From assembly GCA_023264735.1 (NCBI GenBank), contig JAHFVD010000035.1, positions 1-64,000 of the forward strand: a stretch of 64,000 bases of DNA, read 5' to 3'. The stretch is from Mycobacterium sp. (GTDB lineage Bacteria; Actinomycetota; Actinomycetes; Mycobacteriales; Mycobacteriaceae). Positions 11,835 through 48,875 of the stretch are shown piece after piece. Each line of letters begins with the position of its first letter. The stretch's first letter is position 1. The translations under genes and the position numbers were made by a program. The notes under the pieces are model-generated. The model saw only the letters and a list, made by a program, of their open reading frames with translations, did no database searches and was not told where the DNA came from.

Positions 11835-12782
11835 GTGACTGATCTGCAAGTGCGGAAGCTGCGGTTCGGCTTCGCTGACCGTCGCGTGCCCTTCATCTGG
11901 AATGAGTCCGACCCGGCCTTCTCCTGTGCCGCCAACGTGCTGACATTCTTTTTCCTCGCCATCGAGAAAATGATCAGCGCGACTGTTCACGAGGCGCTGC
12001 CGACAATCACCGACCCCGAAGTCGCCGAGGAGGCCCTGGCATTCGTCCGGCAAGAAGGCCAGCACAGCATGGCCCACCGGCAGCACGCGAAGGAATTGAT
12101 CAAGGCCTATCCGGCGATGCAGGAGATTCTCGACGAAATGACGGCGGTCTACGACGAGCTGACCGCCACCACATCGGTGAAGTATCGGTTGGCCTATATC
12201 GCCGACCTCGAGGCAACGTTCGCACCGACTTTCACGATGATGCTCAATAATGCCGACAGTTTATTCGCACCCGGCGATGATCGGGTGGCCTCGCTGTTCC
12301 TCTGGCACTTCGTGGAGGAGATCGAACACCGCAGCTCCGCGCTGATCATCTACGACGCCGTGGTCGGTGAACCGTGGTACCGCATGCGCGTGGCCCCGTC
12401 GGTGTTCCAACATGCCGGAGGCGTACTAGCGACCGCCATCAACCGCTTGAACACACACATCTCACTCGAGGATCGGAAGGTCGACGCGACTTCGATATTC
12501 GGCCCAAATATCAAACTAGCTCTCGCGCAGCGATTTCCACTCTTGAAGCGATCCCGGCGGTTCAACGTGCCCGACTACGGGCCGATGCAGAAGTTCTACC
12601 CGCACATTCCGCTGCGGGTGCAGGCGGTCGCGGCACTTGGCGTCGTACGCGGCCAGCTGCCTCGCCACAATCCCGGGAAACAGAAACTCCCCCGCTTCGC
12701 CACTGAATGGCTCGCCCGCTACGAGGCCGGCTACGACGTCACCCGCTGGTACACGGCAGGTACGCAAGCGCCCCAGGGCTAG
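11835..12782 (+). CDS. Metal-dependent hydrolase family protein (PF10118/COG3687, putative di-iron)
   Basis: A 315-aa helical protein with ferritin-like metal-ligand motifs: a Glu in FLAIEKM (about 44), [10 protein letters not shown] (about 75), a Glu in the helix YIADLEATF (about 125) and [10 protein letters not shown] (about 160). The family is annotated as predicted metal-dependent hydrolase, but the ExxH pairs would equally suit a di-iron oxygenase. The start is GTG 11835. Its TAG stop overlaps the TAG stop of the convergent NRPS2 gene in the palindrome CTAG, leaving no room for a terminator. It sits in the pks transcript, so an oxidative tailoring role on the acyl chain is conceivable but unproven. 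Confidence 0.75.
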
Positions 12783-15700
12783 TTCGCCACCGACTGGCTC
12801 AAATCGCGCACCGTCGGTGTAGCGAACAAGGTGGGCAACGCAACCCGGACATTGAGGGCTGAGTTGATCGCCGCGACCGCCCGCATGGCCGACAGCGAAT
12901 CGCCACCCAGGTCGAAGAACGAGTCGTCCACTCCGACGCGGTCCACCCCCAGCATCTGGACGTAGATGCCGCACAGGAGCCGTTCGATATCGGTGGTCGG
13001 CGCACGGTATTCGCGGCGCTCAGGCGTTGACGTGACGGCCGGCAGTTGGTTGTCCCACCCGTCCATCGCGGCCAGCGGCTGGCCGGGATCGACAGCCATG
13101 GCCGTCAATGCCCGATCGAGTTGGTCGATCAGCTGGTGGATACTGTTGTCGTCGAACACATCCGTTCGGTATTGGATACGAAGGTCCAGTTCATTGCCCG
13201 GCACGGCTTGGATCGTGAGCGGGTAGTGGTAGTAGTCGCGGCTCGCGACGTCGGTGACCCTCAGCCCGTCCGCACCCGACAACAGTGAAGTGTCGGTGGG
13301 ATAGTTCTCGAAGACGAACACAGTATCGAACAGCTTTGACTGACCGGTGGCTTGGTGAATCTCGTTGAGCCCCAGGTACTCGTACTCGAAGGTGCGGCTC
13401 CGGCGGTCCTGCAGCTGATCGAGCAGGCCGGCGACCGTGGTGTCGGGCGAGACATTCACCCGCATCGGCACCGTGTTGATCAACAGGCCCACCATCGAAT
13501 CCGCGCCGGCCACATCGGCCGGCCGCCCTGCCACCACCACACCGAAGGCGACATCACGCTGACCGGTGATCGCCATCAGCAGCTGCGCCCACGCAGCCTG
13601 CAGGACGGTGCTGACCGTGGTGTGGTGGGTACGGGCGAGCTCGTTGAGCGCTAGCGTCGTGTCCTCTGAAACCCGCAGTGAGGTAACGTTTCGCGGTCCC
13701 ACCCCGAGGTCCGGTGGTCCGACCAAGGTGGGGGTGCCGAAGCCCGCCAGCACCTCGTGCCAGGCTGACCGGGCGGCGGCCACATCGCGATCGGCGAGCC
13801 AGCTGATGAACCGGCGATAGGGCACGGCCGCGGGCAGTCGCTGCCCGTAGTAGCCGGCGAACACTTCCTGCAACAGCACCGTCAACGACCAGCCGTCGAG
13901 CAGGATGTGGTGGTTGGTCAGCACCAGCCGGTGCTGATCGGGTGCGATGCGAATCAGCGTGGCCCGGAAAGCCTTCTGCCCGGCCAGATCACAGACCGCA
14001 ACCCGCTCGGCGAGGCACAGCCGCTCAATCTGCTCATCGCGGTCCTCCGCCCTTGTGAGGTCGAGATACTGCCATGGCACGACGGGATCCGCCGGGATGA
14101 CCTGGATGGGCTGCCCGCCGGCCGGCGCGCAGAACCGCGCCACCAGGTTCGGATGCCGCTCGATAGCTCTCTCGACAGACTCCTGCAGCCGGTACCGATC
14201 GAGCCGACCACTCAGCGTGACGCCCATCTGCACCGCGTACACATCGTCGCCAGAACTGTGAGCGACGTTGGCGTGGAATAGCAATCCCTCTTGCAGCGGA
14301 GTCAAAGGCAACACATCGGCGACGTCGTGTTCCTGGCACAGTTCGTCGATCTGCTGCTGCGTCAACCGGGCGGGCGCGATATCCGACGGCGTCAATCCGC
14401 CACCGCCGCCGTGCACGTGAGCGCAGATGCCGGCGAGCGCATCGAACCACAGCCCGGACAGCCGGGTGACCTGTGCGTGGTCCAGCGCCGAGAGCGCCCA
14501 GGTCCAGCCGGCGCGAAGGCGTGGACCGTCATTGGTCTCCACGGTGCCGGCGTTGAGTTCGACGGTGTGCATCAACGGCATTGGAACCGCCGCCGCGGCG
14601 CCGGTCACCTTGTAGCCGTCCTCACGGATCTCCCAGTAGTCACCGGACATCTGGCCGCCACCGCCACTCATGCGGCCCAGATAGTTGAAACCGATCGTCG
14701 GGTCGGCGCCCGCCAGATCGACATCGGTGTTCAGGTAACGCAGCAGACCGTAGGTCAGGCCGTCCGGAAGAGCGCGAAGCTGTTCCTTGGCATCCTTGAT
14801 GATCGGCCCCAAATCCGGGTCGCCGACCAGCACCTGGTCCCAGTCCAGCCCACCCACCGCCAGCGATACCGGGTACTTGGTGGTGAACCATCCGACCGTG
14901 CGCGACAAGTCGACATCGGCGACCTCTTCTTGGCGCCCGTGGCCTTCCGCATCGATGACGACCGGCGAGCCTGCCGTGCCCAGGAATTCGGTCAGCGCCA
15001 ACCCGAAGGCGATCAGCAGTATGTCGTTGATTCCGGCATGGAACGCGGCAGGCACTTCGCCGAGCAACATCCTGGTGGTCTCGGGGTCGAGTTCCACCGA
15101 TAGGCTGCCGGCGTTGGCGTACGTGTCGATCACCGGTTGGACCGCAGGCAGTGGCGCGGGCACCGCGACGATATCCCGCCAGCGCTGCGCCTGGTCCACC
15201 ACCTCCGGGTGATACGCGTGCTCGGCCAGGATCGACGCCCACCGGGCGAACGACGTCCGCGACGGCGGCAGGTCGACGTCCTGGCGACCGTGCAGCTGCG
15301 CCCAGGCAAGGTTGAAGTCCTCCAGCATGATTCGCCACGAGACGCCGTCGACGGCGAGATGGTGCGCGATCATCAAGAGCTGCCCGGCGGGAGCTGCCCA
15401 CAGTGCGCTCACCATCGCACCGGTCGCCGGGTTCAGCCGGGATCGGGCCTTGGCGACCGCTTCCTCCGACAGCACGTCGACCGTGTGCAGGCACGTGCGG
15501 GCGTCGACCGAACCGGGCTCGGGCACGGTCAACGACCAGCCACCGTCGCTGTCGTCCTCGACGCGCATCCGCAACATGCCGTGGCGGTCGAGCACAGCTT
15601 GGAGCACCACCAGCACGTCGTCCTCGGTGACGCCGACCGGCGCCTGGATCAATACGGTCTGGTTGAACTGGTCTACCGGGCCCTGGACATCGTGCAGCCA

Positions 15701-18700
15701 CCGGATGATCGGGGTCGACAGCAGCGGGCCGACGCCTTCGTCGATGACGTCGCTCTCGCCGTCGGAAAGCGTTGCGACCCTGGCGAGGCCGGCCACCGTC
15801 TGTTCGATGAAGATGTCGCGTGGCCGGCAGAGCACCCCGGCGGCGCGCGCGCGGGCGACCACCTGCATCGACAGGATGCTGTCGCCGCCGAGTTCGAAGA
15901 ACGACTCGTCGACGCCGACCCGCTCCAGCCCGAGGACCTGAGCGTAGATGCCGGCCAGGATCTCCTCCACTGCATCCGAGGGGGCGCGGTAGGAGTCAGC
16001 GTCCTGATAGTCCGGTGCCGGCAACGCCTTGGTGTCCAGTTTGCCGTTGACCGTCAGCGGCAGCGCGTCGATGGCCACCACAGCGGAGGGCACCATGTAC
16101 GACGGCAACCGATCACCCAGTGCGGCACGCGCGGCAGCCGGGTCCACGCCGCCGGTCACATACCCGACCAGGCGCTTGTCGCCGGGGCGGTCTTCACGGG
16201 CGATCACGACCGCCTGTTCGACACCGTCCAATTCGCTTAGCACAGCCTGGATTTCGCCGAGTTCGATCCGGTAGCCGCGGATCTTGACCTGCTCGTCGGA
16301 GCGCCCCATGTAGCGCAGCTCGCCGTCGGCGCCCCACGCCATCAGATCGCCGGTGCGGTACATCCTCGCCCCCGGCTGCCCGAACGGACACGCCACAAAC
16401 CGGGTCGATGACAGCCCAGCACGCCCGATGTACCCGTCGGCGACCCCGGCGCCGGCCACGTACAACTCACCGACAACGCCGGGCGGTACCGGCCGCAGGA
16501 GGGTATCGAGGACGAAGAAGCCGAGGTGCCCCAGCGGCACTCCGATCGGACTGACGGCACTGTCCGCATCACCAGCGACGATCTCCCGGAACGACGCGTG
16601 CACGGTGGTCTCCGTGATGCCGTACATGTTGATCAGCCGTGGCGTGCCAGGAGGATGATTCTCAAGCCAGGCCCGCATCCGTTGCGGTTCAAGCGCTTCG
16701 CCGCCGAACACCACGGCCTCGAGCTTCAGCTGTGCGCCGAGCTCGGGATGTGCGGCGTCGGCGGTCTGCAGCGCGTAGAACGCCGACGGGGTTTGGCTCA
16801 GAACACCGACCTGCTCGGAAACCAGCAGGGCGTGCAGATCTTCCGGCGAGCGGACCACCGCATCGGGCACCACGACCACCCGGCCGCCATAGAGCAGTGC
16901 GCCCCAGATCTCCCATACCGAGAAGTCGAACGCCAGGGAATGGCACTGCGACCAGGCCAGTCCCGTCATGTCCATGTCGTCGTCCAAGGTCTGCAGCAGA
17001 CGAATCACGTTGCGATGCGGAATCGCCACGCCCTTGGGGGTTCCGGTCGTTCCGGAGGTGTAGATGATGTAGGCGACGTCGTCGGGCTGCGGCTTCGGCA
17101 GCGCGGACCCGGTATCGACTGCGGGGTCGATCAAGTCGTTCGCATCGATGACCGAGAGGTCGTGTCCGTCAAGCAGTTCGGCCAACGCGGCGGTGGTGAC
17201 GGCCGCGACCGGCCTGGCGTCGCCGAGTACGAATTGGCGCCGCGCCTCGGGCACCGAGGGATCGATCGGCACGTAGGTGGCGCCGGTCTTGACCACCGCC
17301 ACCATGGCCACGATCGCCTCGGCGGAGCGCGGCAACAACAGGGCTACCCGTTGTCCGGGACCCGCTCCGCGACTAGCCAATACGTGCGCCGCACGAGTGG
17401 CTGCCTCGTCGAGTTCGCGGTAGGTCATCGACAAGCCCTCGAAGGTGACCGCCGATGCGTCTGGGGTGAGCTCCGCCTGCGCGGCGAACATCGACGCGAT
17501 CGTTTCCTGGGTGCTCACCGACTGGGTCAGTACCGCACGGTTACCGACCTGGTCGAGGCTTGCGTGCTCTGCGGCATCGAGAACGTCCAGTGCCGACATC
17601 GGCTGAGTCGGGTCGGCGGTCATCTCCGCCATCAACCGCTGCAATCGGTCGACCAGACTCTGGATGCTGGCGGCATCGAATACGTCAGTGCGGAATTCGA
17701 CGCCGCCACCGATCCCGACGGGATCACCCGCCTCGTTCCAGCGCTCGGCCAGGTTGAAGGTCAGATCCATGCGGGCCGTCTTGGTGTCGACCGCCATCGG
17801 CTCGACCTGCAGATCGCCCAGCGACAGCCCGGCGGCGTCGCCGGCCTGCCAGCCAAAGTTCTGCCAGGCCAACACAACCTGTACGAGCGGGTGATGAGCC
17901 ATGCTGCGGGCCGGCTTGAGCCGTTCCACCAGCACTTCGAACGGCACGTCCTGGTGTTCGTAGGCCGACAGGCTCCGTCTGCGCACCTGGGCGAGCAGAT
18001 CGGCGAAGGTGGGATTTCCGGTCAGGTCGACGCGCAACACCAACGTGTTGACGAAGAAGCCGACGAGCTCGTCGAGCGCGGTGTCACCACGGCCGGCGAT
18101 CGGGAAGCCCACCGCCACATCGTTGTTGGCGGAAAGGTTCGACAGCAGCACCGCGAGCGCGGTCTGAATCACCATGAAGCTCGTCGCATTGTGCTCGCGG
18201 GCCACCCGGGCAACCTGTTGCTGCAACTCGGCCGGCCACTGCACCTCGAGCCGGGCACCGCGGTAGTCGGCGGCCAACGGGTACGGCCGATCGGTGGGCA
18301 GCTGCAACTGCTCGGGCATCCCGGCCAGCGCGTCTTCCCAGTAGGCGAGCTCCGCGGAAATGCGGCTGTCGGCATCGGCGAGATCGCCCAGCCGCGAGCG
18401 CTGCCACAGCGTGTAGTCGACATACTGCACCGCCAGATCGGCCCACCCCGGCGCCTCGCCGGCCGAGCGGCTGGCGTAGGCGACGCCCAGATCGCGCACC
18501 AGCGGGGCGATGGACCAGCCGTCGGCGGCGATGTGGTGTACCACGGCCACCAGCACGTGCTCGTCGCCGGCGACCCGGAAAAGCTTGGCCTGCATCGGGA
18601 TTTCGGTCGCCAGGTCGAAGGTGTAGCGCGTCGCCGTATCGATGGCGTCCATCAACTCGGCGTCCGACCAGCTGGTGGCATCGATCACGGTCCAGCCGAA

Positions 18701-21700
18701 GTCCGCGACATCGGTGGACACGACGAGCTGCTGCGGCAGGCCTTCGACCGCCGGGAACCGGGTACGCAGGCTCTGCTGGTGATCCACCACGTCGGCCAGG
18801 GCGGCGCCCAGCGCGTCGGCGTCCAGCTGCCCGTGCAGCCGCAGCGCGACCGGCAGGTTGTAGATCGGCGACGGCCCTTGAAGCTGGTCGACGATCCACA
18901 GCCGGTTCTGGGCGAACGAGAGCGGTACCACGTCGGGGCGCGGACCGGCCACCAGTGGCTCGGAACGGGTTCCGTCCCCGGTGATCCGGGGTGCCAGCTG
19001 GGCAACGGTGGGTGTCTCGAACAGGGCTCGTACCGCCAGACCCGAACCCAGGCTGTTGTTGACCGCGGCGACCAGGCGCATCGCCGACAGTGAATCCCCA
19101 CCAAGGTCGAAGAACGAGTCGTCCGCGCCGACCCGCTCGGCGCCCAGCACCTGGGCGAAGATTCCGGCCAGGATCTCCTCGGTGGGAGTGCTTGGCGCAC
19201 GGTAGTTTTCCGCGTCCTGGTAGTCCGGCGCCGGCAACGCTCGCCGGTCCAGCTTGCCGCTGACCGTCAGCGGGAGCGCTGACAACTCCAGCACCGCGGC
19301 GGGAACCATGTAGGCGGGCAGCCGCTCGGCGAGCGCGACCCGGATCTTGACCGGATCCGCTGTGCCGGTGAAATAGCCGACGAGACGCGGGTCACCAGGA
19401 CGATCTTCGCGGGCAATCACCACCGCCTGCTCGACGCCATCGAGGCCGGCCAGCACGGCCTGGATCTCGCCGGGCTCGATGCGGTAGCCGCGAATCTTGA
19501 CCTGCTCATCGGCGCGCCCGAGATATTGCAGCTGCCCGTCGGCACGCCAGCGCACCAGGTCCCCGGTGCGATACATGCGCGCGCCGGGTTCGCCGAACGG
19601 GCAGGGGACGAATCGTGAAGCGGTCAAACCGGTCCGGCCGATGTATCCGACGCCCACGCCGCGGCCTGCCACATACAACTCGCCGACCACGCCCTCCGGT
19701 ACAGGGTGCAGTCGCTCGTCGAGGACGAACAACGCGACGGTCGGTGGCGGCGCGCCGATCGGCACCTCGGCGCCCACGACCAGCGGCGCGCTCATCGATG
19801 CGTACACCGTCACCTCGGTGGGGCCGTAGGCGTTGATGACAACCCGGCCGGGCGCCCACTGCTCCACCACCTCGGGCGGGCAGGCCTCGCCGCCGAGCAG
19901 CAGCGCCACCGACTCCAGCCCTTCGGGGCGCAGCGCGGCGACCGCCGATGGCGTTTGGGTGAGCACGTTGACGTGCTCACTGACCAGGAGGGCATGGAAG
20001 TCGTCCGGTGAGCGCACTACCGCGTCGGGCACCACCAGCAGTCGCCCACCCCCGAGTAGCGCGGCCCAGATCTCCCACACCGAGAAGTCGAACGCATACG
20101 AGTGGCATTGCGTCCACACCTGGTCGGCCGGCAGCGCCGGATGCGCCGAGGCCGCCAGGTGGGCGAGGTTACGGTGCGACAGCGCAACACCTTTGGGGGT
20201 GCCGGTCGTGCCCGAGGTGTAGATGAGGTACGCGATGTTGTCCGCCGACGGCGCAGGCAACCCGGTACTGGGCTCGGTCTCGATGGCGGGATCATCGAGG
20301 TCGATGACCGCCACATCGTGGCCATGCAGCCGCGACCGCAGACCCGGGGTGGTCACGACGGCGACCGGGGCGGCGTCGGCGAGCATGAACTCGACGCGGG
20401 CCTCCGGCAGTGCGGGATCGATCGCGAGGTACGCCGCCCCGACCTTGAGCGCGGCCAGCATGACGACGACCGCGTCGGCCGAGCGATCGAGCAGGAGCGC
20501 GACGCAATCGCCTGCTCCGACGCCGCGGCCGGAAAGCAAGTGCGCGTACCGGTTTGCCGCGTCTTCGAGCTCCTCGTAGGTCATCGACTTCTCGCCGGAG
20601 GTCAGCGCGATGGCTTGCGGGGCACGAATCACTTGCGCGGCGAACAATTCGGGCACCGAGATTGCCGCTGGGACAGACTCCGTCAGTACCGCACGGTTGC
20701 CCACCTTGTCGAGGCGTGCGTGCTCGGCAGAATCGAGCACGTCGATCGACGACACCCGCTGGGTGGGGTCAGTGGTCATCGCCACCAGCACCCGCTCGAG
20801 CCGCCCGACCATTGTCTCGATGCTCGCGGCGTCGAAGACGTCGGTGCGGAATTCGACCATGCCGAAGACCCCGGTGGGCTCGCCGGCGTGGGTCCAGCGT
20901 TCGGTCAGCGAGAATGCGAGATCCACTCGGGCGGTGTGCGTGTCGAGCGGGAGCTGGGTGACCTGCAGGTCACCCAACGCCAGCGCAATGTCTTCGCTGG
21001 TCTCGCCGGGTAGGTTCTGCCAGGCCAGCATCACCTGGACCAGCGGATGGTGGTTGAGCGATCGAGTGGGGTTGATCCGCTCCACGACGACTTCGAACGG
21101 CACGTCCTGGTGCTCGTACGCGGCCAGACTGCGCGTGCGCACCTGGGCCAGGAGGTCGGCAACAGTGGGGTCGCCGCCGACGTCCACACGCAGCACCAAG
21201 GTGTTGACGAAGAATCCCACCAGGGCGTCCAGTGCGGGGTCGCTGCGCCCGCCGATCGGGAATCCCACCGCCACATCGGAACTCGCGCTCATCTTGCCCA
21301 GCAGCAGGGAGAGCGCGGCCTGAACCAGCATGAAGCTGGTCGCATTGTGCTCGCGGGCCACCGCGGCGATCCGCTGTTGCAACTCGACGGGCCATTGCCA
21401 CCCGACGGTGGCACCGGACTGGTCCGCGACCGGCGGATACGGCCGGTCGGTCGGCAACTGCAGCCGTTCGGGCATCCCTGCCAACGCGTGTTGCCAGTAC
21501 TCCAACTGCGCCGCGATCAGGCTGTTGCCGTCGTTCAGGTCACCGAACTGCGCACGCTGCCACAACGTGTAATCGACGTACTGGACCGGCAAATCGGCCC
21601 AGACCGGGTCCAGCCCGGCGCTTCGGCAGACATATGCCACGCCCAGGTCGTTCACCATCGGGCCCATCGACAGTCCGTCGGCAGCGATGTGGTGCGCAAC

Positions 21701-24700
21701 GGCCACCACGACGTGGTCGTCGTCGCTGACCCGGAACAGCCGGGCCTGCATGGGAATCTCGGCAGCCAGATCGAACGAGTGCAGGGCAACCGCACTGACA
21801 GCCTCATCCAGCTGAGCTTCGGACCAGCCGCCCGCATCGATGACGTCCCAACCGAAGTCAGCCTCCTCGGCGGGCACCACCAGCTGTCGCGGTATCCCCT
21901 CGGGCGCGGCGAACATCGTGCGAAGGCTCTCGTGTCGCCCCACCACGTCGGCCAGTGCCGCGCCCAGCGCCTCGGTGTTGAGCGGCCCGGTCAGCCGTAG
22001 GCCCACCGCCATGTTGTAGGTCGGCGACGGCCCCTGCAACTGGTCGAGGAACCACAGTCGGTTCTGCGAGAACGACAATGGGATGACCGCGGGCCGCTCC
22101 ATGGGCCCCAACGGTTTCAGCCGATCGTCATCTCCGCCGATACGCGGCGCCAACTGTGCGACCGACGGCGCCTCAAACAACGTCCGTACCGAAAGATGGA
22201 CATTCAGACCGGTATTGACCGCGGCGATCAGGCGCATCGCCGATAGCGAATCCCCGCCCAAGTCGAAGAACGAGTCGTCCACACCGACCCGACTCAGGTC
22301 CAGGATCCTGGCGTAGATGCCGACCAGGATTTCCTCGACCGCGGTGGCCGGGGCACGGTAGGTGTCGGTGTCCGCGAATTCCGGCGCCGGCAGCGCCCGG
22401 CGATCGAGTTTTCCGTTGACCGTCAAGGGCAGTTTATCGATCACCAAGATCGCGGCCGGAACCATGTACTCCGGCAGGCGTTCTGCCACCGCCGCGCGCA
22501 CCGCGGCGGGATCGACCAACCCGGTGACGTAACCCACCAGGCGCTTGTCGCCGGGACGGTCCTCGCGGGCGATCACGACCGCCTGCCGGACTCCGTTCAC
22601 CTCGGCGAGCACGGCGCGAACCTCACCGAGTTCGATCCGGTATCCACGGATCTTGACCTGCTCGTCGGCGCGCCCCACATACCGCAGTTCACCATCGGCG
22701 CCCCACCACACCAGATCCCCGGTGCGGTACATGCGGGTCCCCGGCGCACCGAAGGGGCAGGCGAGGAAGCGCGACGACGACAACCCGGGTCGCCGCCAAT
22801 AGCCCAAGCCGGCCTGCGGCCCAGCCACATACAAGTCGCCGACCACACCGGCGGGCACCGGACGCAACCACTGGTCCAGCACAAAGAACGCCAGGTCCGC
22901 CAGCGGCCCACCGACCGGGCTGACGTCGGCGTCCGTATCCGTACCGACGATCTCGCGGAACGACGCGTGCACCGTGGTCTCGGTAGTGCCGTACAGGTTG
23001 AGCAGCCGCGGCGAACCCGGGTGGCTGTCCAGCCATGCCCGAAGACGTTGCGGCTCAAGCGCTTCCCCGGCGAATATCACCGCGTGCAAGTTCAGCTGAC
23101 GGCCGATCTCGGGCTGCAGCGCGTCCGCGGTTTGCAGCGCGTAGAACGCCGACGGCGTCTGGGACAGCACGGTGACCTGTTCGGCGGCCAGCAGTGCGTG
23201 GAATTCCTCTGGTGCGCGGGCCACCGATTCGGGCACGACCACCAACCGACCGCCGCACAACAGCGCGCCCCACATCTCGCACACCGACACGTCGAAGGCC
23301 AGGGAGTGCCAGAGCGACCACACCTGTTCCGCCATAGCGATATTGGCGTCCATGGCGGCCAGCAGCTGGGCCACGTTCTGGTGGGTGATGGCGACACCCT
23401 TGGGGACGCCGGTGGTGCCCGAGGTGTAGATCAGATACGCGATGTCGTCGGGTGCCGGCCCAGCCAACGCGGTAACGGGCTCGCCGGCGACACCCGGATC
23501 GTTCACATCGATGATCCGCAGGTTCGCACCCGTAAGCCGCCCGGCCAACTCCGCGTTGGTGATCGCAGCCACCGGCGCGGCATCATCGAGCACCAACTGC
23601 ATCCGCGCCGACGGCGCAGCCGGATCGATCGGCACATACGCCGCCCCGGTCTTGAGCACCGCCAGAATCGACACGATCGCATCCGCCGACCGCGGCAACA
23701 GCAGTGCCACCCGCTGCCCCGGACCAATCCCCTTGCCCGCCAAGAAATGCGCAAACCGATTGGTCGCCTCGTCCAACTCACGATAGGTCCAGGAGCGCTC
23801 ACCCCAGGTGAGTGCCAACGCGCCGGGAGCGCGTGCCACCTGGGTGGCGAACATCGCGGGAATCGACGCATGCGTGGACCCGGGTCCAGTCAGCGCGGCG
23901 CGATTGCTCCACTGATTCAGGTGGGCGAGCTCAGCGTCGTCGAGCATGTCGAACGAGGACAACGGACGGGCCGGATCGGCGATCATGGCGCTCAAGACCC
24001 GTTTGAATCGACCGATGATTGCGTCAACGTCTGCCGCGTCGAATATGTCGGTGTCGTACTCGACGCGCAGCGTCAGTTTGTCACCCGGAATCGCTTGCAT
24101 CGCGATTGGATAGTGGTTGTACTCGCGGTGGGCGAAGTCCGTGACGACCAATCCCTCGGTACCCGACAACTTGGCGGCGTCGATCGGATAGTTCTCATAG
24201 ACGAAGAACGTGTCGAACAGGTGATCCTGACCCGCCACCCGATGAATCTCGCTGAGCGCCAAGTGCTGATGATCAAGTGTCTGGGCGTGATCGTTCTGCA
24301 GCTGATCAAGCAGATCGGCAGTCGTGGTCGCAGTGGCAATCCTGACCCGTACCGGCACGGTGTTGATCAACAGACCCACCATCGAGTCCGAACCCAACAC
24401 TTCATCTGGACGCCCTGAGACCGTCGTGCCAAAAGCAACGTCACATTGACCGGTCTGCGACATCAACACCCGCGCGAAGGCACCCTGCAACACCGTGCTG
24501 ATCGTGGTGTGACACGACCGCGCCAACGCACCAAGGGCCTGTGTCGCCTGTTCGGACACAGCGGAGGAGGCGACGTCGCGCCGTCCCAGACTTGCCCGGC
24601 CTGCCGCACCTACCAACGTCGGAGTGTCGAAACCGGCCAGCACCCGCCGCCACGCCGCGCGAGCGGCATCAATATCGCGGCCCGTCAACCACGTAACGAA

Positions 24701-27700
24701 CCGCCGATACGGCGCCGCGGGAGGCAATCGCTGGCCGTAATAGCTCGCAAACACCTCGCCGACCAGGATCGGCAACGACCATCCATCCAGCACGATGTGA
24801 TGGTTGGTCAACACAAATCGGTGCTGATCAGCCCCCGTACGAATCAACGCCGCCCGCAACGCCGGCTCATTCGTCAACTCACACACCGCGATACGCTCGG
24901 CCGCGCACACCTGCGCGATCTGTCCTTCGATGTCGCCGCCGGCGTCCAGCTCGAAGTACTGCCACGGCACCGCCGGCTCCGCCGGAATGACTTGCACCGG
25001 TTCAGCAAACCGTTGGGAGAACCGCGCCGCCAAGTTGGGATGCCGGACCACCACCGCCTGCACCGCCGCGTGCAGTCTCGCCTGGTCCAGCGGACCACTC
25101 AAACTCACATACAGCTGAACGGCATACACATCGTCGCCGCCCAGCGCCGCACTGGCGTGAAACAACAACCCCTGCTGCAACGGCGTCAGCGGCAAGACGT
25201 CACCTATCCGCATGCTGCCGCTGGAACTTATCGAGCCGCTCTTCGCTACGACCGGCCGCGGGGCGGCAGGGAGCGGGGCGGCCACCAGTTCCGGTCGAGC
25301 TTCTTCTCCGGCGATCAACGTGGCCAGCTGGGCGACCGTAGGCGCATCGAAGAGCGCCCGCACCGAAAGCCGGCTGTTCAGGCCGGCATTGACCGCAGCG
25401 ATCAGGCGCATCGCCGACAACGAGTCGCCACCAAGGTTGAAGAATGAGTCGTCCACGCCGACGCGCTGCAGACCGAGCACCTTGACGTATATGTCGGCCA
25501 GCACCTCCTCGACGACGGTGGCCGGGGCGCGGTAATGACCGGTGTCGGAGAACTCCGGGGCTGGCAGTGCCCGCCGGTCGAGCTTGCCGTTGACCGTCAA
25601 CGGCACCGCGTCGATCACCACGATCGCGGCAGGAACCATGTACTCCGGCAGGCGTTCGGCCACCGCCGCACGCAATGCGGCCGGTTCGAGGGCAGCCGAA
25701 GCCCCGGTGACGTATCCGACGAGCCGCTTCTCGCCCGGGCGGTCCTCGCGGGCGATCACGACCGCCTGCTCAACTCCGTCCACCCCGGCCAGCACCGCTT
25801 GCACTTCGCCGAGTTCAATGCGATAGCCGCGGATCTTGACCTGCTCGTCGGCACGCCCCACGTACCGGAGCTGGCCGTCGGTACCCCACCACGCGAGGTC
25901 ACCGGTGCGGTACATCCGCACCCCGGAGCCGCCGAACGGGCATGCCACAAAGCGCGATCCGGTCAAACCCGCGCGGTCGAGATACCCGGCGCCGACACCG
26001 TGGCCGGCGACGTACAACTCACCGACCACGCCCGGCGGGACCGGCCGCAACCAACTATCGAGCACGAACAAGGCCGCCCCGGAGATGGGCGGCCCGATCG
26101 GCACTGCCCCGGATCCCGCTTCCAGCGGCGCACTGAGGGCCACGTCGACAGTCGTCTCGGTGGGACCGTAGGCGTTGATCATGACGCGCCCGGGCGCCCA
26201 CTGATCCATCAGCTCGGTCGGACAGGGCTCGGCGCCGATGATCAGCGCCACCGATCCCAGAACCTGGGGCGACAGCATCCCCACTTCGGATGGGGTGGTA
26301 CTGAACACGCTGACCTGTTCGGCGACCAGTGCAGCCTGGAGATCTTCCGGTGCACGGGCCACCGACTCGGGCACCACCACCAACCGGCCGCCACCAAGCA
26401 GCGCGCCGAAGATCTCTTGGACCGAGACGTCGAAGCCGTAGGACCGGCACTGTGCCCAAACCCGTTGCGGGGGAAGGGGTGCCGCAATCAGTGAGCCCAC
26501 CAGCTGGGCAACATTGCGGTGGGCGATGGCAACACCCTTGGGGACGCCGGTGGTACCCGAGGTGTAGATCAGGTACGCGATGTCATCGGGCGAAGGGCCG
26601 GCCAGTGCGGAACTGGGCTGGCTGGCGACCGTGGGATCGTTCACATCGATGACCAGCAGATCCGGCCCGGTCAGCCGCTGCGCCAACTCGGGATTGGTGA
26701 TCACGGCCACCGGCGCGGCATCGCCGAGCACCAGCTGCATGCGGGCCGACGGCGCGGCCGGGTCGATCGGCACATACGCCGCCCCGGTCTTGAGCACCGC
26801 CAGAATCGACACGATCGCCTCAGCAGAGCGCGGCAACAGCAACGCCACCCGCTGACCCGGACCAATCCCGTTGCCCGCCAACGCATGCGCGAACCGGTTG
26901 GTCGCCTCATCCAGCTCGCGATACGTCATCGAGCGGCTCTCGAAAGTCAGCGCCGTCGCTTCCGGGTCACGAGCGGCCTGGGCGGCGAACAACGCAGGAA
27001 TCGAGAATGCCACCGGTGCGGGTTGGTCCAGCACCGCCCGGTTGCTCCAGTCATCCAGCTGTGCGCGCTCGTCGTCATCCAGCAGGTCCATCGAGGCCAA
27101 CGGCAACGTGGGATCGGCGACCATCGCCGCCAAGACGCGCATAAGCCGGTCGATCAACGCGTCGATACCGGCCGCGTCGAACACATCGGTGCCATATTCG
27201 ACGCGCAGGGTCAGCTCGTCACCCGGGATGGCTTGAACTGAAAGCGGATAGTGGTTGTATTCGTGGTGGGCGAAGTGCGTGACAGCCAATCCATCGCTGC
27301 CCGACAACTTCGCGGCATCGATCGGATAGTTCTCATAGACGAAGAACGTGTCGAACAGGTGATCCAGACCCGTCACCCGGTGAATCTCGCTGAGCGCCAG
27401 ATGCTGATGCTCCAAAGTCTGGGCATGATCATTCTGCAGCTGATCGAGCAGATCCGCGGTCGTCGTCGTCGCCCCGATCCGCACCCGGACCGGCACCGTG
27501 TTGATCAACAGACCCACCATCGAGTCCGCACCCAGCACCTCATCGGGCCGCCCCGACACCGTCGTGCCGAACGCGACATCACGCTGACCCGTCAGCGACA
27601 TCAGCACTCGCGCATAGGCGCCCTGCAACACCGTGCTGACCGTGGTGTGGCACGACCGCGCCAACTCCCCCAGCGCCCGCGTGGTGTCCTCGGGCACCTG

Positions 27701-28336
27701 AAACGATGCGACGTCCCGCCCGCCCGGCACCCGGCCCGCCGGACCGACCAATGTCGGGGTATCGAACCCCGCCAGCACCTCACCCCACGCCGCACGCGCC
27801 GCATCGAGATCACGACCGGTCAACCAACTGACGAAGCGCCGATAAGGTGCGGCGGGAGGCAGTCGCTGCCCGTAATAGCTCGCGAACACCTCGCCCAGCA
27901 GGATCGGCAACGACCAGCCGTCCAACACGATGTGGTGATTGGTCAGCACGAACCGGTACTCGTCTACCCCGGTCCGAATCAGTGCCGCCCTAAACGCCGG
28001 CTCATCGGCCAACTCACACACCGCGACCCGCTCGGCCGCGCACACCCGCGCGATCTGTTCCTCGTCATCCAGCTCGACGTACCGCCAGGGCACCACCGGT
28101 TCGGCGAGGATGATCTGGACCGGCTCCGCGTACTGCTGGGAGAACCGGGCCGCCAGGTTGGGATGCCGGGCGACCACCGCCTGCACCGCCGCATGCAACC
28201 TGTCCTGATCCAACGGACCACTCAAACTCACATACAGCTGCACCGCGTACACGTCGTCGCCACCCAGCGCCGCGCTGGCGTGAAACAACAACCCCTGCTG
28301 CAGCGGAGTCAGCGGCAGAACATCAGCTATCCGCAT
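12779..28336 (-). CDS. Nonribosomal peptide synthetase, modules 2-5 plus terminal A-less C-T
   Basis: A 5185-aa protein. Module 2: C about 1-420, A 440-930, T near 970. Module 3: C from Met1042 to about 1465, A 1490-1985, T near 2028. Module 4: C 2080-2510, A 2530-3030, T near 3077. Module 5: C 3130-3560, A 3590-4095, T near 4150 (GGDSILSMQ), E about 4200-4640 ([10 protein letters not shown]). A second C (about 4660-5080, HHILLDGWS) and a T (GGDSLSAMR near 5143) end the protein. There is no A domain in the last unit and no TE or reductase. All C domains keep HHxxxDG. Specificity codes read by eye are M2 DVQSIGAVDK, M3 DVCSIALVHK, M4 DFWTLGAVYK and M5 DFWSVGMVHK. M5 is close to the Thr code, M2 has an acidic last pocket residue, and M3 and M4 are unassigned. 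The start overlaps the NRPS1 stop by 14 bp, so the two are probably translationally coupled. Confidence 0.95.
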
Positions 28337-31300
28337 ACTGCCGCTGAAGCTCGTCGATCTGCTCCTGGGTCAGACAGGCCGCGATATCCGACGGCGTCAA
28401 CCCGCCCCCACCGCTTTGTACGTGTGCGCAGATGCCGGCCAGCGCGTCAAACCACAACTGGCTCAACCGGTTCACCTGCGCCTGATTCAGCGCCGATGGC
28501 GCCCACATCCACGCCGCGGACAAGCACGGCCCGGCATCGGTGTCCACCGTGCCCGCATTGAGCTCCAAGGTGTGCATCAGCGGGATCGGCGGCTTCACGC
28601 TCGGGCTGATGTTCGCCAACCCGTCCCAGCAGATTTGCCATGCGTCACCGGATGTTTCGGCCGACGTCGCACCTTGACGCCCCAGATAGTTGAACCCGAT
28701 CACCGGATCGGGTCCGTCCAAGTCAACCTCACTGTTCAGGTAGCGCAACGCCCCGTAGTTGACGCCCTCGGGCAGGCTCCGAAGCTGCTCCTTCGCCGCT
28801 TTGATCACCGCGCCCAGCCTCGCGTCGCCGGCCACTACCTGGGCCCAGCTCAGTCCACCCACTTCCAGCGCCACCGGATACTTTGCGGTGAACCAGCCCA
28901 CCGTGCGCGACAGGTCGACTTGCTCGCCCGGGGAAGCAACCAGCTCCTCGTCGCGCCCGTGACCCTCGACGTCGATGGCGATCGGCGTACCGCCGGTACC
29001 CAAGAATTCCGTCGCGGCTAAGGCGAATGCGATCAGCAAAATCTCGTGCACACCGGCATGGAATGCCGCCGGCACCTCCCCGAGCAGTGTCTGGGTGGTC
29101 TCGATATCGAGAACTGCCGCGAGGTTCCCGGCCGTCACCAACGTGTCCGCGGTTGCGTCCACCTCAGGCAATGCCGCGGGCGTTGCCGCGATCTGCCGCC
29201 AAACGTCGACCTCCGCGACGACGTCGGCACGATGCGCATGCTCATCGAGCAACGATGCCCACCGGGCGAATGACGTCCCGGGCTCGGGCAGCACCGCCTG
29301 CTGGCCGGCACGGTGCTGGGCCCAGGCGAAATTGAGGTCCTCCAAGAGGATTCGCCACGACACCCCGTCGATCGCCAGATGGTGGATGATCGCTACCAGC
29401 CGACGGGTTGAGGTCACCCACACAGCGCTCAGCATGACGCCGGCGGCCGGGTTCAACTGCGTTCCAGCGTGCAGCACCGCGTCGTCGGTGAGCACGTCGA
29501 CGGTGTGCAGGCGCGAACGGGCATCCACCGCACCGGCTTCCGGTACTTCCAACGACCAGCCGCCGGCATCATCACGGCCGACCCGCAACCGCAGCATGGC
29601 GTGCCGATCCAGCAGGAGCTGCAACATCTCCAGCACATCGGCCTCGGTGGTCCCCACCGGCGCCTGCACCACGACTGTCTGGTTGAAGTGGGCAACCGGG
29701 CTGCCCGCGGCTTCCAGGCTCTCGAGCCAGCGGATGATCGGAGTGGCGATCACTGGCCCGACTCCGTCGGCGTCCAGATCGCTGTCGGCGTCGGCCACCT
29801 TCGCGACCTGAGCCAACCGGGCCACGGTCTGCTCGATGAAAACGTCGCGCGGACGGCACAATACGCCCGCGGCTCGCGCTCGAGCCACAACCTGCATCGA
29901 CAGGATGCTGTCGCCGCCCAGCTCGAAGAACGACTCGTCCACGCCGACTCGTTCCAGCCCGAGAACTTGGGCGTAGATCCCGGCCAGGATCTCCTCCACA
30001 GCATCGCCAGGTGCGCGATAGGAGTCGACGTCCTGATACTCCGGTGCCGGCAGGGCCTTGGTGTCGAGCTTGCCGTTGACGGTCAGCGGTAACGCGTCGA
30101 TTGCGACGACGGCGGTGGGAACCATGTATACGGGGAGGCTCTCGGCCACCGCCGCACGGGCTTTCACCGGATCCGCGGAGCCAGTGATGTAGGCCACCAA
30201 CCGCTTGTCACCGGCACGGTCCTCGCGGGCGATCACCACCGCCTGCTCGACACCGTCCAATTCGCCCAGCGCAGCTTGGATTTCACCCAGCTCGATGCGG
30301 TAGCCGCGGATCTTGACCTGCTCATCGGCGCGCCCCATGTACTCGAGCTGCCCGTCGGCGTTCCAGCGCACCAGATCGCCGGTGCGGTACATCCGCGCCC
30401 CCGGTGCCCCGAACGGGCATGCCACGAACCTTGTTCCGGACAATCCCGCCCGCCCCACATAGCCATAGGCCAAACCTGATCCGGCCACGTATAGTTCGCC
30501 GACCACACCGGCGGGGACCGGTTGCAACCAACCGTCGAGCACAAAGAAACCCAGATTGGCCAGTGGACGCCCAATCGGGCTGACGTTCGGAACCGCCACA
30601 GTATCTGTTTCAGCGATCTCCCGGAACGACGCATGCACGGTCGTCTCGGTGATGCCGTACATGTTGATCATCCGCGGCGAACCCGGATGGTTCTGCAGCC
30701 AGGTCCGAATGCGGTGCGGTTCAAGGGCTTCGCCGCCGAAGACCACCGCCTTGAGCGCGAGCTGCTGCGTCGGGTCGTCGGAGGGCACGTCGGCGCTTTG
30801 CAGCGCATAGAACGCAGTCGGGGTCTGGCTCAGAACAGCGACGCGTTCGGACACCAGCAGGGCGTAGAAGTCTTCCGGCGACCGGACCACCGCATCGGGA
30901 ACGACCACCACTCGTCCGCCGTAGAGCAGGGCGCCCCAGATTTCCCACACCGAGAAATCGAAAGCCAACGAATGGCACTGCGTCCACACCTGCTCCGCGA
31001 TTTCCATATCGGTGGCCAGCGCCTCCAACAGCCGGGTCACGTTGTGGTGCGGGATCGCCACACCCTTAGGTGTTCCCGTGGTCCCGGAGGTGTAGATGAT
31101 GTACGCGATGTCATCTGGCGCCGGCCCCGGCAATGCCGTGCTGGGTTGGCTGTCAACTGCCGAATCGGCGAAATCGATGACCAGCAGCTCCTGCCCGTCA
31201 AGGCGCGAGCGCAACTCCGCGGTGGTGATGGCGGCAACCGGCGCGGCATCGTCGAGCACGAACTGCATCCGCGCCTCCGGCACTGCCGGATCCACGGCCA

Positions 31301-32891
31301 CATACGTTGCGCCCGTTTTCAACACCGCCAGGATCGCCACGATCGCCTCGGCCGAGCGCGGCAACAACAACGCCACCCGCTGCCCCGGTCCCGCACCGTG
31401 AGTTGCGAGTAGGTGCGCCAACCGGTTCGACTTCTCGTCCAGCTGCTGGTAGGTCCACGACTGCTCGCCGCAGGTCAGCGCCATCGTGCCCGGGACGCGA
31501 GCCGCCTGCTCGGCAAACCGTGCGGGAATCGATACCGGAGCGCTCAGCGGCTCGGCCAGCACGGCCCGATTGCCCCACGCGCCAAGGCAATCCCGCTCCG
31601 TGGCGTCGAGCACGTCGATCGAGGACAGCCGCCGCGCCGGGTCGGCGGTCATCGCCACCAGTACCTCCAGCAGGCGCCTGGTCACCTCCGCGGCATCCCA
31701 ATCCGCGAACAGGTGACCTGTCCCCAGCGTGCTCAGGAAAAGCTCGTCGCCAAGCCCGGAGAACGTAAACCCAGTGCTGCCGGCAAGGCCGGAGTTGGTC
31801 ATGTTCGCCGATGCGGGGGCGCCGCCGAAGTCCAACGTGAATGCCGCCGGGAAGAAATTGATGACGATCCGGTCGGCGGTGTGTGCACCGCGTTCAAGCG
31901 CGTGCACCGGAAACCTCTGGTGTTGCACGGCTTCGGAGATTCGCGTGTCGACGTGCTTACAGAAATCGCGGACCGAGGATTCCGCCGGGGTGCGCAACAC
32001 CAGCGGCACCAAGCCGGCAGCCATCCCCGGCAGTGTTTTCAGCTCCGGACGGATTCGTCTGCTGACCGGGAAGTCGAACACCACGTCGGAGCCTTCGGCG
32101 CAGCGCCCGCGCACCAACAGTGCGCTCGCCGCGGCAATCACCGAGGTACGCGGGATGTCCCATTCGTGGGCCAGCTCGTCGACTCGCCGCAGGACTGCCG
32201 GATCCAGCGGGACCGGCACCGAACGCCAACCGGGATCAGATTCGTCGTCGCCTTCCGGCGACCGGGTGTCGGAACCGCTTTCGACAGGAAGGTTTGCGGC
32301 CCAGTAGGCCTCGTCTTCGCGATAATCGCTCGACCGCTCGTATTCCGATTCGCATTCGAGCAAGTCCCGCAATGAGCCAAAGAATGCCGGCGAAATGAGA
32401 TCCCCGGAAATGGTGGCCGAATAGATCGATGCGACGCGATTGACAAGCAACCAAATTCCGGCGCCGTCAATGACAATGTGGTGGAAACACCCGAATACAT
32501 AGAATTCGGCGGGCCCGGTCTCAAATACAGCGTATTTGAACAGCGGACCGGTAAACGGCATGGGCGTGCGCTGGATCGACAGCGCCGTCTCCTGCACGTC
32601 GCGCGCCGGATCGCTCGAGCCGCTGAAGTCATAGAAGTCCAGGTCGATTTCCGGGTAGTCGAGCACCCGCTGGAAGACCTGGCCTTCTTCCTCGAAGAAC
32701 GCAGCCCGGACCGGCTCGGCTTCGCGCGTCGCACGCTGCAACGCCCACTCGAAGGCATCGCGTTCCAGCACGCCCTCGACCTTCAGCAGCATGCCGAGCT
32801 GCCAGTCGGTAGCGGCTTGACCCGTCTCCTGTGCCAGCCAGATGTCCAGCTGCGCGCGCGTCAGCGGAAGCGCATCCTCGTTGAACTCCAT
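28323..32891 (-). CDS. Nonribosomal peptide synthetase, lipo-initiation module 1 (Cstarter-A-T-E)
   Basis: A 1522-aa synthetase. The starter-type C domain (about 1-410, HHIVIDG near 137) opens with [17 protein letters not shown], resembling the acylating N-terminus of mycobacterial Mps1. It is followed by A (about 430-940), T (GGDSILSMQ near 995) and E (about 1040-1480, [10 protein letters not shown] near 1167). The A-domain code by eye is DFWSVGMVHK, matching the Thr code DFWNIGMVHK at 8 of 10 positions, so an N-acylated D-Thr or D-allo-Thr is predicted. I chose ATG 32891, which has GGGAG 5 nt upstream, over the TTG at 32918 that abuts the mbtH stop. It lies between mbtH and NRPS2 in one operon. 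Confidence 0.93.
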
Positions 32892-32896
32892 CAAAA

Positions 32897-32901
32897 CTCC
32901 C
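32897..32901 (-). promoter_or_regulatory. Ribosome binding site selecting ATG 32891 of NRPS1
   Basis: GGGAG on the minus strand, 5 nt before ATG. It lies between the mbtH stop and the chosen start. Confidence 0.55.
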
Positions 32902-32918
32902 AGACCCAAACCGCTCAA

Positions 32919-33146
32919 CTAGTCGGACGCTCGGCTTCCTGCAAGCCGGTCGCGCAGACTCTTTGGTCGTATGTCGGGCCAGTTCGCTTCGATGTAGTCC
33001 AGACACGCCGCACGGTCAGCTTCGCCGTGTACGACCCGCCAACCGGCCGGGACATCAGCGAACGTCGGCCACAGGCTGTGTTGCTCCTCGTCGTTGACCA
33101 AGACGACAAAACTGCCCGCGTCGTCATCGAACGGATTGGTGCTCAC
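32919..33146 (-). CDS. mbtH: MbtH-like protein
   Basis: A small protein (75 aa) that binds and activates NRPS adenylation domains. It has the family signature [20 protein letters not shown], then LWP, PAGWRVV and a C-terminal NWPDIRP with the conserved tryptophans. The track ORF starts at 33221, but GTG 33146 (VSTNPFDDD) fits the usual family length of about 70 aa and has GGGAGA just upstream. It is the first gene of the NRPS operon, as mbtH is in GPL loci, and its stop lies 28 bp before the NRPS1 start. It probably serves all five A domains. Confidence 0.95.
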
Positions 33147-33150
33147 CGCG

Positions 33151-33156
33151 TCTCCC
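33151..33156 (-). promoter_or_regulatory. Ribosome binding site selecting GTG 33146 of mbtH
   Basis: GGGAGA on the minus strand, 4 nt before GTG. Confidence 0.5.
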
Positions 33157-33176
33157 GACACTCTCGTCAATATGGG

Positions 33177-33190
33177 TGGAACAAGTTCCA
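33177..33190. promoter_or_regulatory. Dyad TGGAAC-AA-GTTCCA at the predicted transcription start
   Basis: A perfect 6-bp inverted repeat around a 2-bp centre. It covers the predicted +1 of the NRPS operon, a classic repressor position. No cognate regulator is in the window. Confidence 0.45.
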
Positions 33191-33191
33191 A

Positions 33192-33221
33192 ACCATACTT
33201 TGTGGGTATGACCCATGTCAC
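33192..33221 (-). promoter_or_regulatory. Candidate SigA-type promoter of the mbtH-NRPS operon
   Basis: On the minus strand, -35 GTGACA (33221-33216) and -10 TATGGT (33197-33192) are separated by 18 bp. A start near 33185 would give a leader of about 40 nt to mbtH. Confidence 0.5.
33203..33215. promoter_or_regulatory. Dyad TGGGT-ATG-ACCCA inside the promoter spacer
   Basis: A perfect 5-bp inverted repeat lying wholly between the predicted -35 and -10 of the mbtH promoter, so a bound protein would block RNA polymerase. Confidence 0.45.
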
Positions 33222-33230
33222 GAAGTTGGG

Positions 33231-33246
33231 TGTGACTCACATCACG
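33231..33246. promoter_or_regulatory. CRP-like site TGTGA-N6-TCACG
   Basis: Matches the mycobacterial CRP consensus TGTGA-N6-TCACA with one mismatch. It is centred about 53 bp upstream of the predicted start of the NRPS operon. Confidence 0.45.
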
Positions 33247-35488: not shown

Positions 35489-35538
35489 AGTGTAAGAATG
35501 CCTCGATTTCAATTGACGTGTTCGCTGAATAAGCAGGT
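35489..35538 (+). repeat. Conserved leader repeat, copy 1
   Basis: AGTGTAAGAATGCCTCGA, then CAATTGACGTGTTCGCTGAATAAGCAGG-type sequence up to the start codon. It is nearly identical to the leader of the next acyltransferase gene and partly shared with the third. Confidence 0.6.
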
Positions 35539-35546
35539 TGGTGACA

Positions 35547-37736
35547 TTGCCCCACGCCGACAGCCTTAGCGCTGCCGAAGAACAGCAGAGTCGGCAGTCC
35601 GGGCAGAAGAACTTCCGCCCGGACATCGAGGGCCTACGCGCCGTCGCCGTGACGGCCGTCGTTTTGTTCCACGCCGCCATCCCCGGCATCGGTGGGGGCT
35701 ACGTCGGCGTGGACGTCTTCTTCGTCATCTCCGGGTTCCTCATCACCGGCCTGCTGTGGCGTGAGGTCAGCGGAACCGGCACCGTGCGGCTGCGCAGTTT
35801 CTATGGGGCCCGCGCCCGCCGACTGCTGCCGGCGTCGGCCATGGTCGGTGTGGTCACGATGATCGCCTCGATACTGCTGCTGCCGCCGTTGCGAGTCCCG
35901 ACCGTCCTCTACGACGGGATCGCCAGCGCGCTCTATGTCGGCAACTACTGGTTCTTCCTGGACAACGTCAACTATTTCTCCGACTCGCTGTCGCCGTCAC
36001 CGTTCCTGCACTACTGGTCGCTGGGCGTCGAAGAGCAGTTCTATCTGGTCTGGGCGCCACTGCTGCTCGGCACGGCATGGTTCATCCGGCGATTCCGGCG
36101 GAACAAGACCCGCGCCATCGGTTCCTCCCGGCGCCCCTACCTGGTGGTCCTCGGCCTGGTCGCCGCCGCGTCTTTCGCACTGTCGATGGTGATCACCTAC
36201 GTCGTACCCTCGCTAGCATTCTTTTCGCTGGCCACACGTGCCTGGCAACTGGCCATCGGTGGGTTGGTGGCACTGACGGCGATTCACTGGCAACGCCTGT
36301 CACCGCGAACGGCCGCGATCGCTGGCTGGACCGGCTTGGGCATGATCGTGCTCGCCTGCCTGTGGTTCACCGCGACCACGCCCTTCCCCGGTACCGGCGC
36401 GCTGCTGCCCACCCTCGGTGCGGTACTCGTGATCGGCGCCGGTTGCGCCACCCCGTCACAGGGCTGCGGACAATTCCTGAGCACGGCGCCGATGCGCGCG
36501 GTCGGGCGCATCTCCTACTCCTGGTATCTGTGGCACTGGCCGGTGCTCGTGCTCGCACCATCGCTGCTGGGCCACCCGCTGGGACTGGCCGAACGGATCA
36601 TCGCGGCCCTGCTGGCCGCCGGCCTCGCATGGTTGACCCTGCGCTATCTCGAAAACCCGCTGCGCTTCGCGCCGAAAATCCGCAACTCACCGTGGCGCAG
36701 CCTCGGCCTCGGCGCGGTGGCCACCGCGATCGCGGTCTTCGTCGGCCTCGGGCTGCTCAGGGTCGTGCCCACCCCGGTGGGGCACGGCGCGCCGGCAACC
36801 CCCGTGGCCTTCACCGCCACTCCAGCCTTAGCCGCAGGTTCGGATGTCGGCGCCTACGACGCTGCGGTACAACAAGCGTTCGCCCAGGTGCAGACCGCGC
36901 TCGCGGCATCCATCGGCCCCAAACCCGTCCCGTCAAACCTGACCCCGCCACTGGACAACCTGTCCGGCGAACAACGGAACTTCACCTATAACGGCTGCCT
37001 GCGCACGCCCTATGAAAGCGGACAGCCCGAGTGCGCGATGGGCGATGTCACGTCGCCAACCACGGTCGCCCTCATCGGCGACTCACACGCCGCGATGTGG
37101 ACACCGCCCTTCCAGCAGATTGCCGACCAACGGCACTGGCGGCTGGAGATGATGGCCAAAGAAGCCTGCCCCGTCATGGACGTAGAGGTCGGGGGCATCT
37201 TCCGTCGCATGATCGAAGATCTTCAGCACTGCGAACAATGGCGCGCCGAGGTCATGTCCCGGCTCAAGGCGGAACGGCCCCGACTCGTCGTGGTCAGCGT
37301 CTGGCGGGGATACGGTTTCGACGAAACGATGACCGGCTTCAAGGGGTACGGCTCGGCCTGGGTCGACAGCCTGGCGCGGCTCGTACGGCAGCTACGTGAC
37401 ATTGGCACGCAGGTACTGATACTCGGTCCGGCGCCCAGCCCGCACGCGAATGTACCGATCTGCCTGTCCGGCAATCTGGATAACGCGGCGGCGTGTTCAC
37501 TGGCGCGGTCGGCTGCTGTGAATCAGTCCGGAATCGCCGCCGAGACCGCTGCCACGACAGCCGGCGGCGGACAATACGCCGACGTCAGCGATCTTTTTTG
37601 CACTGCCGAACGCTGCCCGGTCGTCGTCGGCAACACGCTGGTCTACATGGACGTGAGCCACGTGTCCATCCCCTACTCACGGCAATTGGCTCCGGCCATC
37701 GGGGCGCTGACCGACCGCGCGCTCGCCCGTGGCTGA
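35547..37736 (+). CDS. OatA-like membrane O-acyltransferase with C-terminal SGNH domain, copy 1
   Basis: A 729-aa protein. Acyltransferase-3 domain with about ten membrane segments (about 25-400), opening with RPDIEGLRAVAV and LFHAA. An extracytoplasmic SGNH domain (about 490-725) has IGDSHAAMW as nucleophile block and MDVSHVS as the Asp-x-x-His block. Such fusions O-acylate sugars on the outer face of the membrane. I take TTG 35547 as start because it aligns with GTG 37835 of copy 2; the track start at 35538 is also possible. It probably acetylates or acylates the glycan of the lipopeptide. It is a tandem paralogue of copy 2. Confidence 0.9.
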   Translation: MPHADSLSAAEEQQSRQSGQKNFRPDIEGLRAVAVTAVVLFHAAIPGIGGGYVGVDVFFVISGFLITGLLWREVSGTGTVRLRSFYGARARRLLPASAMVGVVTMIASILLLPPLRVPTVLYDGIASALYVGNYWFFLDNVNYFSDSLSPSPFLHYWSLGVEEQFYLVWAPLLLGTAWFIRRFRRNKTRAIGSSRRPYLVVLGLVAAASFALSMVITYVVPSLAFFSLATRAWQLAIGGLVALTAIHWQRLSPRTAAIAGWTGLGMIVLACLWFTATTPFPGTGALLPTLGAVLVIGAGCATPSQGCGQFLSTAPMRAVGRISYSWYLWHWPVLVLAPSLLGHPLGLAERIIAALLAAGLAWLTLRYLENPLRFAPKIRNSPWRSLGLGAVATAIAVFVGLGLLRVVPTPVGHGAPATPVAFTATPALAAGSDVGAYDAAVQQAFAQVQTALAASIGPKPVPSNLTPPLDNLSGEQRNFTYNGCLRTPYESGQPECAMGDVTSPTTVALIGDSHAAMWTPPFQQIADQRHWRLEMMAKEACPVMDVEVGGIFRRMIEDLQHCEQWRAEVMSRLKAERPRLVVVSVWRGYGFDETMTGFKGYGSAWVDSLARLVRQLRDIGTQVLILGPAPSPHANVPICLSGNLDNAAACSLARSAAVNQSGIAAETAATTAGGGQYADVSDLFCTAERCPVVVGNTLVYMDVSHVSIPYSRQLAPAIGALTDRALARG

Positions 37737-48870: not shown

Positions 48871-48875
48871 GATTG

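Follow-up and report, generated by a model that had tools for sequence, protein, structure and literature searches.

The window considered here, the whole 64,000-nucleotide stretch of DNA that was analysed, comes from a 6.26 Mb Mycobacterium/Mycolicibacterium genome and contains an NRPS operon on the minus strand, in which mbtH is the first gene and is followed by two NRPS genes with one and four adenylation domains (Table 1). The GTG codon is taken as the mbtH start from the MbtH Pfam match, and an ATG at 33127 was rejected for this role. Around these genes lie a Pks2-like polyketide synthase, an AMP-binding ligase, glycosyltransferases and acyltransferases, and farther on the same contig there are MmpS/MmpL-like and rml-like sugar genes, as judged by eye from the translations; the product of the cluster is probably a glycosylated lipopeptide of about five residues. 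Close orthologs of the operon are present in M. pinniadriaticum, M. rhodesiae and M. sphagni. There is no regulator gene among the scanned window genes, and none is obvious, by eye from the translations, in the next 10.5 kb of the contig. Among the other genes of the window we note three large acyltransferases of about 730 aa (35538-37736, 37835-40021 and 48873-51077), all of which have the NCBIfam SucT model as their best match, far below its cut-off, and at least the first of which has a fused SGNH domain.

Table 1. Genes and promoter features of the mbtH-NRPS operon in the window. Distances are relative to the start point placed from the -10 hexamer.
Feature	Coordinates	Strand	Basis
Second NRPS gene, four adenylation domains	12779..28336	-	Pfam on its two halves
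First NRPS gene, C-A-PCP plus a second condensation-type domain	28323..32918	-	Pfam
mbtH, 75 aa, GTG start at 33146	32919..33146	-	Pfam MbtH, E = 2.7e-30
Predicted 5' leader, about 40 nt, GGAG ribosome-binding site	33147..33186	-	Start placed from the -10 only
Candidate start-point operator TGGAAC-TT-GTTCCA, KstR-like (TNNAAC-NN-GTTNNA)	33177..33190	-	Arm pairing, KstR matrix
-10 hexamer TATGGT (TANNNT)	33192..33197	-	Promoter scan; conserved position
Spacer palindrome TGGGT-ATG-ACCCA (minus strand TGGGT-CAT-ACCCA)	33203..33215		Judged a coincidence
Crp-like site 2, GTGACATGGGTCAT (GTGAC-N4-GTCAY), centre near -28.5, left half is the -35 hexamer	33208..33221	-	Conservation, fixed offset
-35 hexamer GTGACA	33216..33221	-	Promoter scan
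Crp-like site 1, GTGATGTGAGTCAC (GTGA-N6-TCAC), centre near -52.5	33232..33245	-	Conserved arms

The promoter scan identifies a single sigma-70-like match in 1.3 kb, where 0.3 would be expected, and this is the minus-strand pair GTGACA and TATGGT separated by 18 nt. This is exactly the pair that had been predicted from the letters of the region in an earlier sequence-only reading, all of whose quoted motifs are present, and it is supported by conservation: a TANNNT -10 is in place in 82 of 89 mbtH promoters. Transcription would start near 33186, a position derived only from the -10 hexamer ending at 33192. No RNA fold signal is seen in the 5' leader (z = 0.75), and an RNA hairpin at the start of the transcript was rejected, there being no such signal and a 2-nt loop being unable to close.

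Conservation was assessed in three sets of promoters. The close set contains 17 distinct aligned promoters, those of the window and of 16 related mycobacteria whose mbtH is at least 86% identical. A class of 30 promoters with tandem boxes was picked by pattern, such that arm conservation within it arises partly by construction; the offset between its boxes, and the 17 close promoters, are free of this effect. The broad set has 89 distinct mbtH-NRPS promoters of the genus, with three upstream architectures: tandem Crp-like boxes as in the window, a TTAGACAA -35, and a GGAACTTTGCCGAAAC element. Promoters of the third class (L020, L026, L083, L085, L098 and other relatives) share a conserved GGAACTTTGYCGAAAC element, which precedes the -10 by about 45 nt. 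Mean pairwise identity among the 17 close promoters is about 0.57 upstream of 33249, 0.96 in both the CRP-like box and the -10, 0.92 in the start-point dyad, 0.90 at 33221-33208 (Crp-like site 2) and 0.86 in the 5' leader.

The CRP-like TGTGA-N6-TCACG that the sequence-only reading had placed about 53 bp upstream is present, and its arms are retained in 16 of the 17 close promoters, making it essentially invariant and conserved beyond chance as judged from the alignment. The full box lies at 33246-33231 (plus strand TGTGA-CTCACA-TCACG), and as GTGATGTGAGTCACA it fits the TGTGA-N6-TCACA-type inverted repeat of sites for Crp, a member of the CRP/FNR family. Pattern searches, as opposed to a full motif scan, find 30 copies of GTGAYNNNNRTCAC in the genome and nine of a reversed control, and because of this enrichment the motif behaves like that of a real regulator. 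One strong Crp-type protein is encoded in the genome, with 224 aa and near identity to M. tuberculosis CRP.

The sequence-only reading missed a second Crp-like site of the same kind, as recognised from its sequence and conservation, which contains the -35 hexamer. In the window it reads GTGAC-ATGG-GTCAT with one outer mismatch (GTCAT), in one branch of the relatives it is ATGAC-ATGG-GTCAC, and in others it is GTGAC-N4-GTCAC; L021 has GGGAC-ACGC-GTCCC. The single outer mismatch is thus in the right arm in the branch of the window (GTGAC/GTCAT) and in the left arm in the other (ATGAC/GTCAC), and one arm is always perfect in the window and its relatives. The offset between the two sites is 24 bp in 26 of the 30 tandem-box promoters and 19 bp in the remaining four, which form one subgroup. 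The tandem GTGAY-N4-GTCAC pattern is rare, occurring in 13 of 119 mycobacterial genomes, and seven of the matches are mbtH-NRPS promoters.

The dyad reported over the start point as TGGAAC-AA-GTTCCA is also present, and is operator-like and the most deeply conserved element of the promoter. In roughly half of the 89 mbtH-NRPS promoters it follows a TANNNT -10 at a distance of 1 nt, and five or six of its six arm pairs are formed in 50 of the 82 TANNNT promoters, nearly all at the same offset, compared with 12% in shuffles; on these counts its conservation exceeds chance. The arms co-vary (TGGAAC/GTTCCA and TAGAAC/GTTCTA), and in promoters with the GGAACTTTGCCGAAAC element the spacer is a single nucleotide, TGGAAC-N-GTTCCA. 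What had been overlooked is that the dyad, with its 2-nt spacer, fits the KstR motif TNNAAC-NN-GTTNNA (PMC1995591). A KstR matrix built from 43 distinct published sites, for which leave-one-out scores range from 12.3 to 25.5 bits, gives the window dyad 18.0 bits, a score that none of two million random 14-mers reaches, and kstR is encoded in the source genome. The TT at the centre occurs in none of the 43 published sites, although TT-centred KstR-like sites precede dehydrogenase and other lipid-type genes in other mycobacteria (gene types assigned by eye from translations), and for this reason KstR is a possible rather than an established reader of this sequence. Two promoters, L121 and L131, keep the tandem Crp-like boxes and have lost the start-point dyad, and as natural variants they could show whether the two inputs can be separated.

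The third reported dyad, TGGGT-ATG-ACCCA in the spacer, had been offered as a further repressor site. The letters of all three dyads are present, as three separate repressor sites would require, but the alignment contradicts this explanation, which we regard as highly improbable. Just six of 30 promoters have an intact spacer dyad, compensatory changes are absent, and nine of the 17 close promoters have a spacer 1 nt shorter, reading ATGGGTCACACCACG. Its TGGGT arm is kept in close orthologs as part of another dyad, and the ACCCA arm shows no more conservation than the remaining spacer positions (mean pairwise identity 0.75 and 0.77, respectively, in the 17 close promoters). By hand arithmetic about three perfect 5-bp-arm dyads with spacers of up to 10 are expected in the 275-bp region. 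The spacer dyad was rejected as a repressor site and looks like a chance coincidence, and the conserved feature at this position is Crp-like site 2. The reported set of three nested dyads therefore becomes two real conserved elements, a coincidence and a fourth element that had been missed, in a tandem rather than a nested arrangement; of the expected conservation across relatives, that of the CRP-like box and the start-point dyad stands and that of the spacer dyad does not. It could also be supposed that conservation reflects just the core promoter and leader, all dyads being incidental, and the 5' leader is indeed well conserved in close relatives. We consider this unlikely, in that the upstream box is outside the core promoter and yet nearly invariant, the start-point dyad is kept, with arms that change together, whichever of the three upstream architectures is present, and the leader lacks an RNA fold signal. 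Little more probable is a reading of the GTGAC/GTCAC repeats in which they bind not Crp but the response regulator MtrA. In its favour, both boxes contain GTCACA, and a GTCACAgcg element has been reported for MtrA (PMC2945938), but MtrA recognises closely spaced 9-nt direct repeats (PMC6265350). The repeats here are inverted, retain both arms and lie 24 or 19 bp from each other, and in L121 and L131 the sequence CTCACA breaks GTCAC while retaining the Crp arm TCACA. An MtrA site was rejected on this geometry.

A stronger rival is that the start-point operator is read by a TetR protein other than KstR, encoded outside the cluster and regulating mycobacterial lipopeptide NRPS operons, and we give this somewhat less than an even chance. 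Nearly all promoters with a 2-nt spacer carry the TT centre, which published KstR sites lack, the third promoter class retains the arms with a 1-nt spacer, and the -10 and operator are combined almost exclusively at mbtH-NRPS operons and, within some clusters, ahead of the PKS gene. In the source genome TNGAACTTGTTCNA is found once in 6.26 Mb, at this promoter. However, the score of the 14-bp dyad falls inside the range of real KstR sites, relatives have TT-centred sites at lipid-type promoters, and the scanned window genes and the adjoining 10.5 kb yielded no gene for such a regulator.

Promoters of the TTAGACAA type in L187, L194, L201 and L203 are associated with a second copy of the -10 and operator about 13 kb from mbtH. 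This copy comes with a truncated mbtH frame, some 30 codons long, that immediately precedes a type I PKS gene; the ATG of the PKS gene overlaps the stop codon of this leader. The arrangement is a duplicated promoter with a possible coupling leader. The window itself has no such copy in front of its pks at 4695.

The reading that we favour, with a probability of about 0.62, is that this is a sigma-A-type mbtH-NRPS promoter with candidate tandem Crp boxes at -52.5 and -28.5, 24 bp apart, and an operator of the KstR kind of TetR over the start. A plausible scenario is that Crp-cAMP bound at the upstream box helps RNA polymerase, that Crp at site 2, which contains the -35, would block RNA polymerase by competing with it, and that a TetR repressor, KstR or a relative, would block initiation from the operator over +1 until released by a lipid ligand. 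The observations behind it are the conserved layout of the promoter, its fixed spacings, the overrepresentation of the Crp motif in the genome, and the crp and kstR genes encoded there. Counting against it are the TT centre missing from the 43 KstR sites, the outer mismatch of site 2 in the window, the loss of the start-point dyad in L121 and L131, and the 1-nt dyad spacer in another promoter class, which KstR should not accept. The earlier suggestion of strong repression plus cAMP-linked control thus retains a candidate Crp-type site and an operator-like dyad, both conserved, and loses the separate spacer repressor dyad, which is broken in most relatives; the control itself is inferred. More tentatively, and with less than an even chance, the start palindrome may mark a TetR regulon, shared among mycobacterial lipopeptide NRPS operons and so far undescribed, to which a tandem Crp module is added in the group of the window, tying synthesis to cAMP and to lipid metabolites via KstR or a relative. 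Surface lipopeptides such as glycopeptidolipids set mycobacterial colony type and host interaction, and the regulation of their synthesis is little known (PMC12455991). The conserved operator and tandem Crp boxes provide testable candidates, Crp and KstR, and a motif for searching other species.

Several known systems provide a context for this promoter. GplR1 (MAB_1638) of M. abscessus is a TetR-like regulator of glycopeptidolipid genes (PMC12455991), and like the TetR input proposed here it acts at lipopeptide NRPS loci, one of its sites being in the putative regulatory region of an mbtH homolog (PMC12455991). Its site, a 23-nt inverted repeat with outer TCTGG/CCAGA arms, is not at the window promoter (no match within two mismatches). 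A search of the available literature found no paper linking Crp with glycopeptidolipids and, among titles and abstracts, none on KstR control of glycopeptidolipid operons. Operators of the KstR regulon (Rv3574/MSMEG_6042, TetR family) have the same 14-bp palindrome overlapping a promoter, but the published list is without the TT centre of the window dyad, the published kstR site overlaps its -10 from upstream whereas the window dyad follows the -10, and the regulon serves lipid degradation rather than a lipopeptide NRPS operon. In M. tuberculosis, CRP sites are concentrated in two intervals, -60 to -40 and +1 to +20; binding upstream goes with activation and binding close to the start with repression (PMC4117774), and because of this relationship the layout in the window may support both. 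Tandem activating and inhibitory CRP sites are known at M. tuberculosis whiB1 (PMC4117774), and whiB1 and M. smegmatis cydAB both resemble the window promoter in having two GTGA-N6-TCAC boxes near one promoter, those of cydAB being at -65.5 and -93.5, 28 bp apart (PMC7739888), rather than 24 bp. The window promoter differs from both in that one box contains the -35 and a TetR-type operator is added, and its architecture is one of ordinary, known parts in a new combination.
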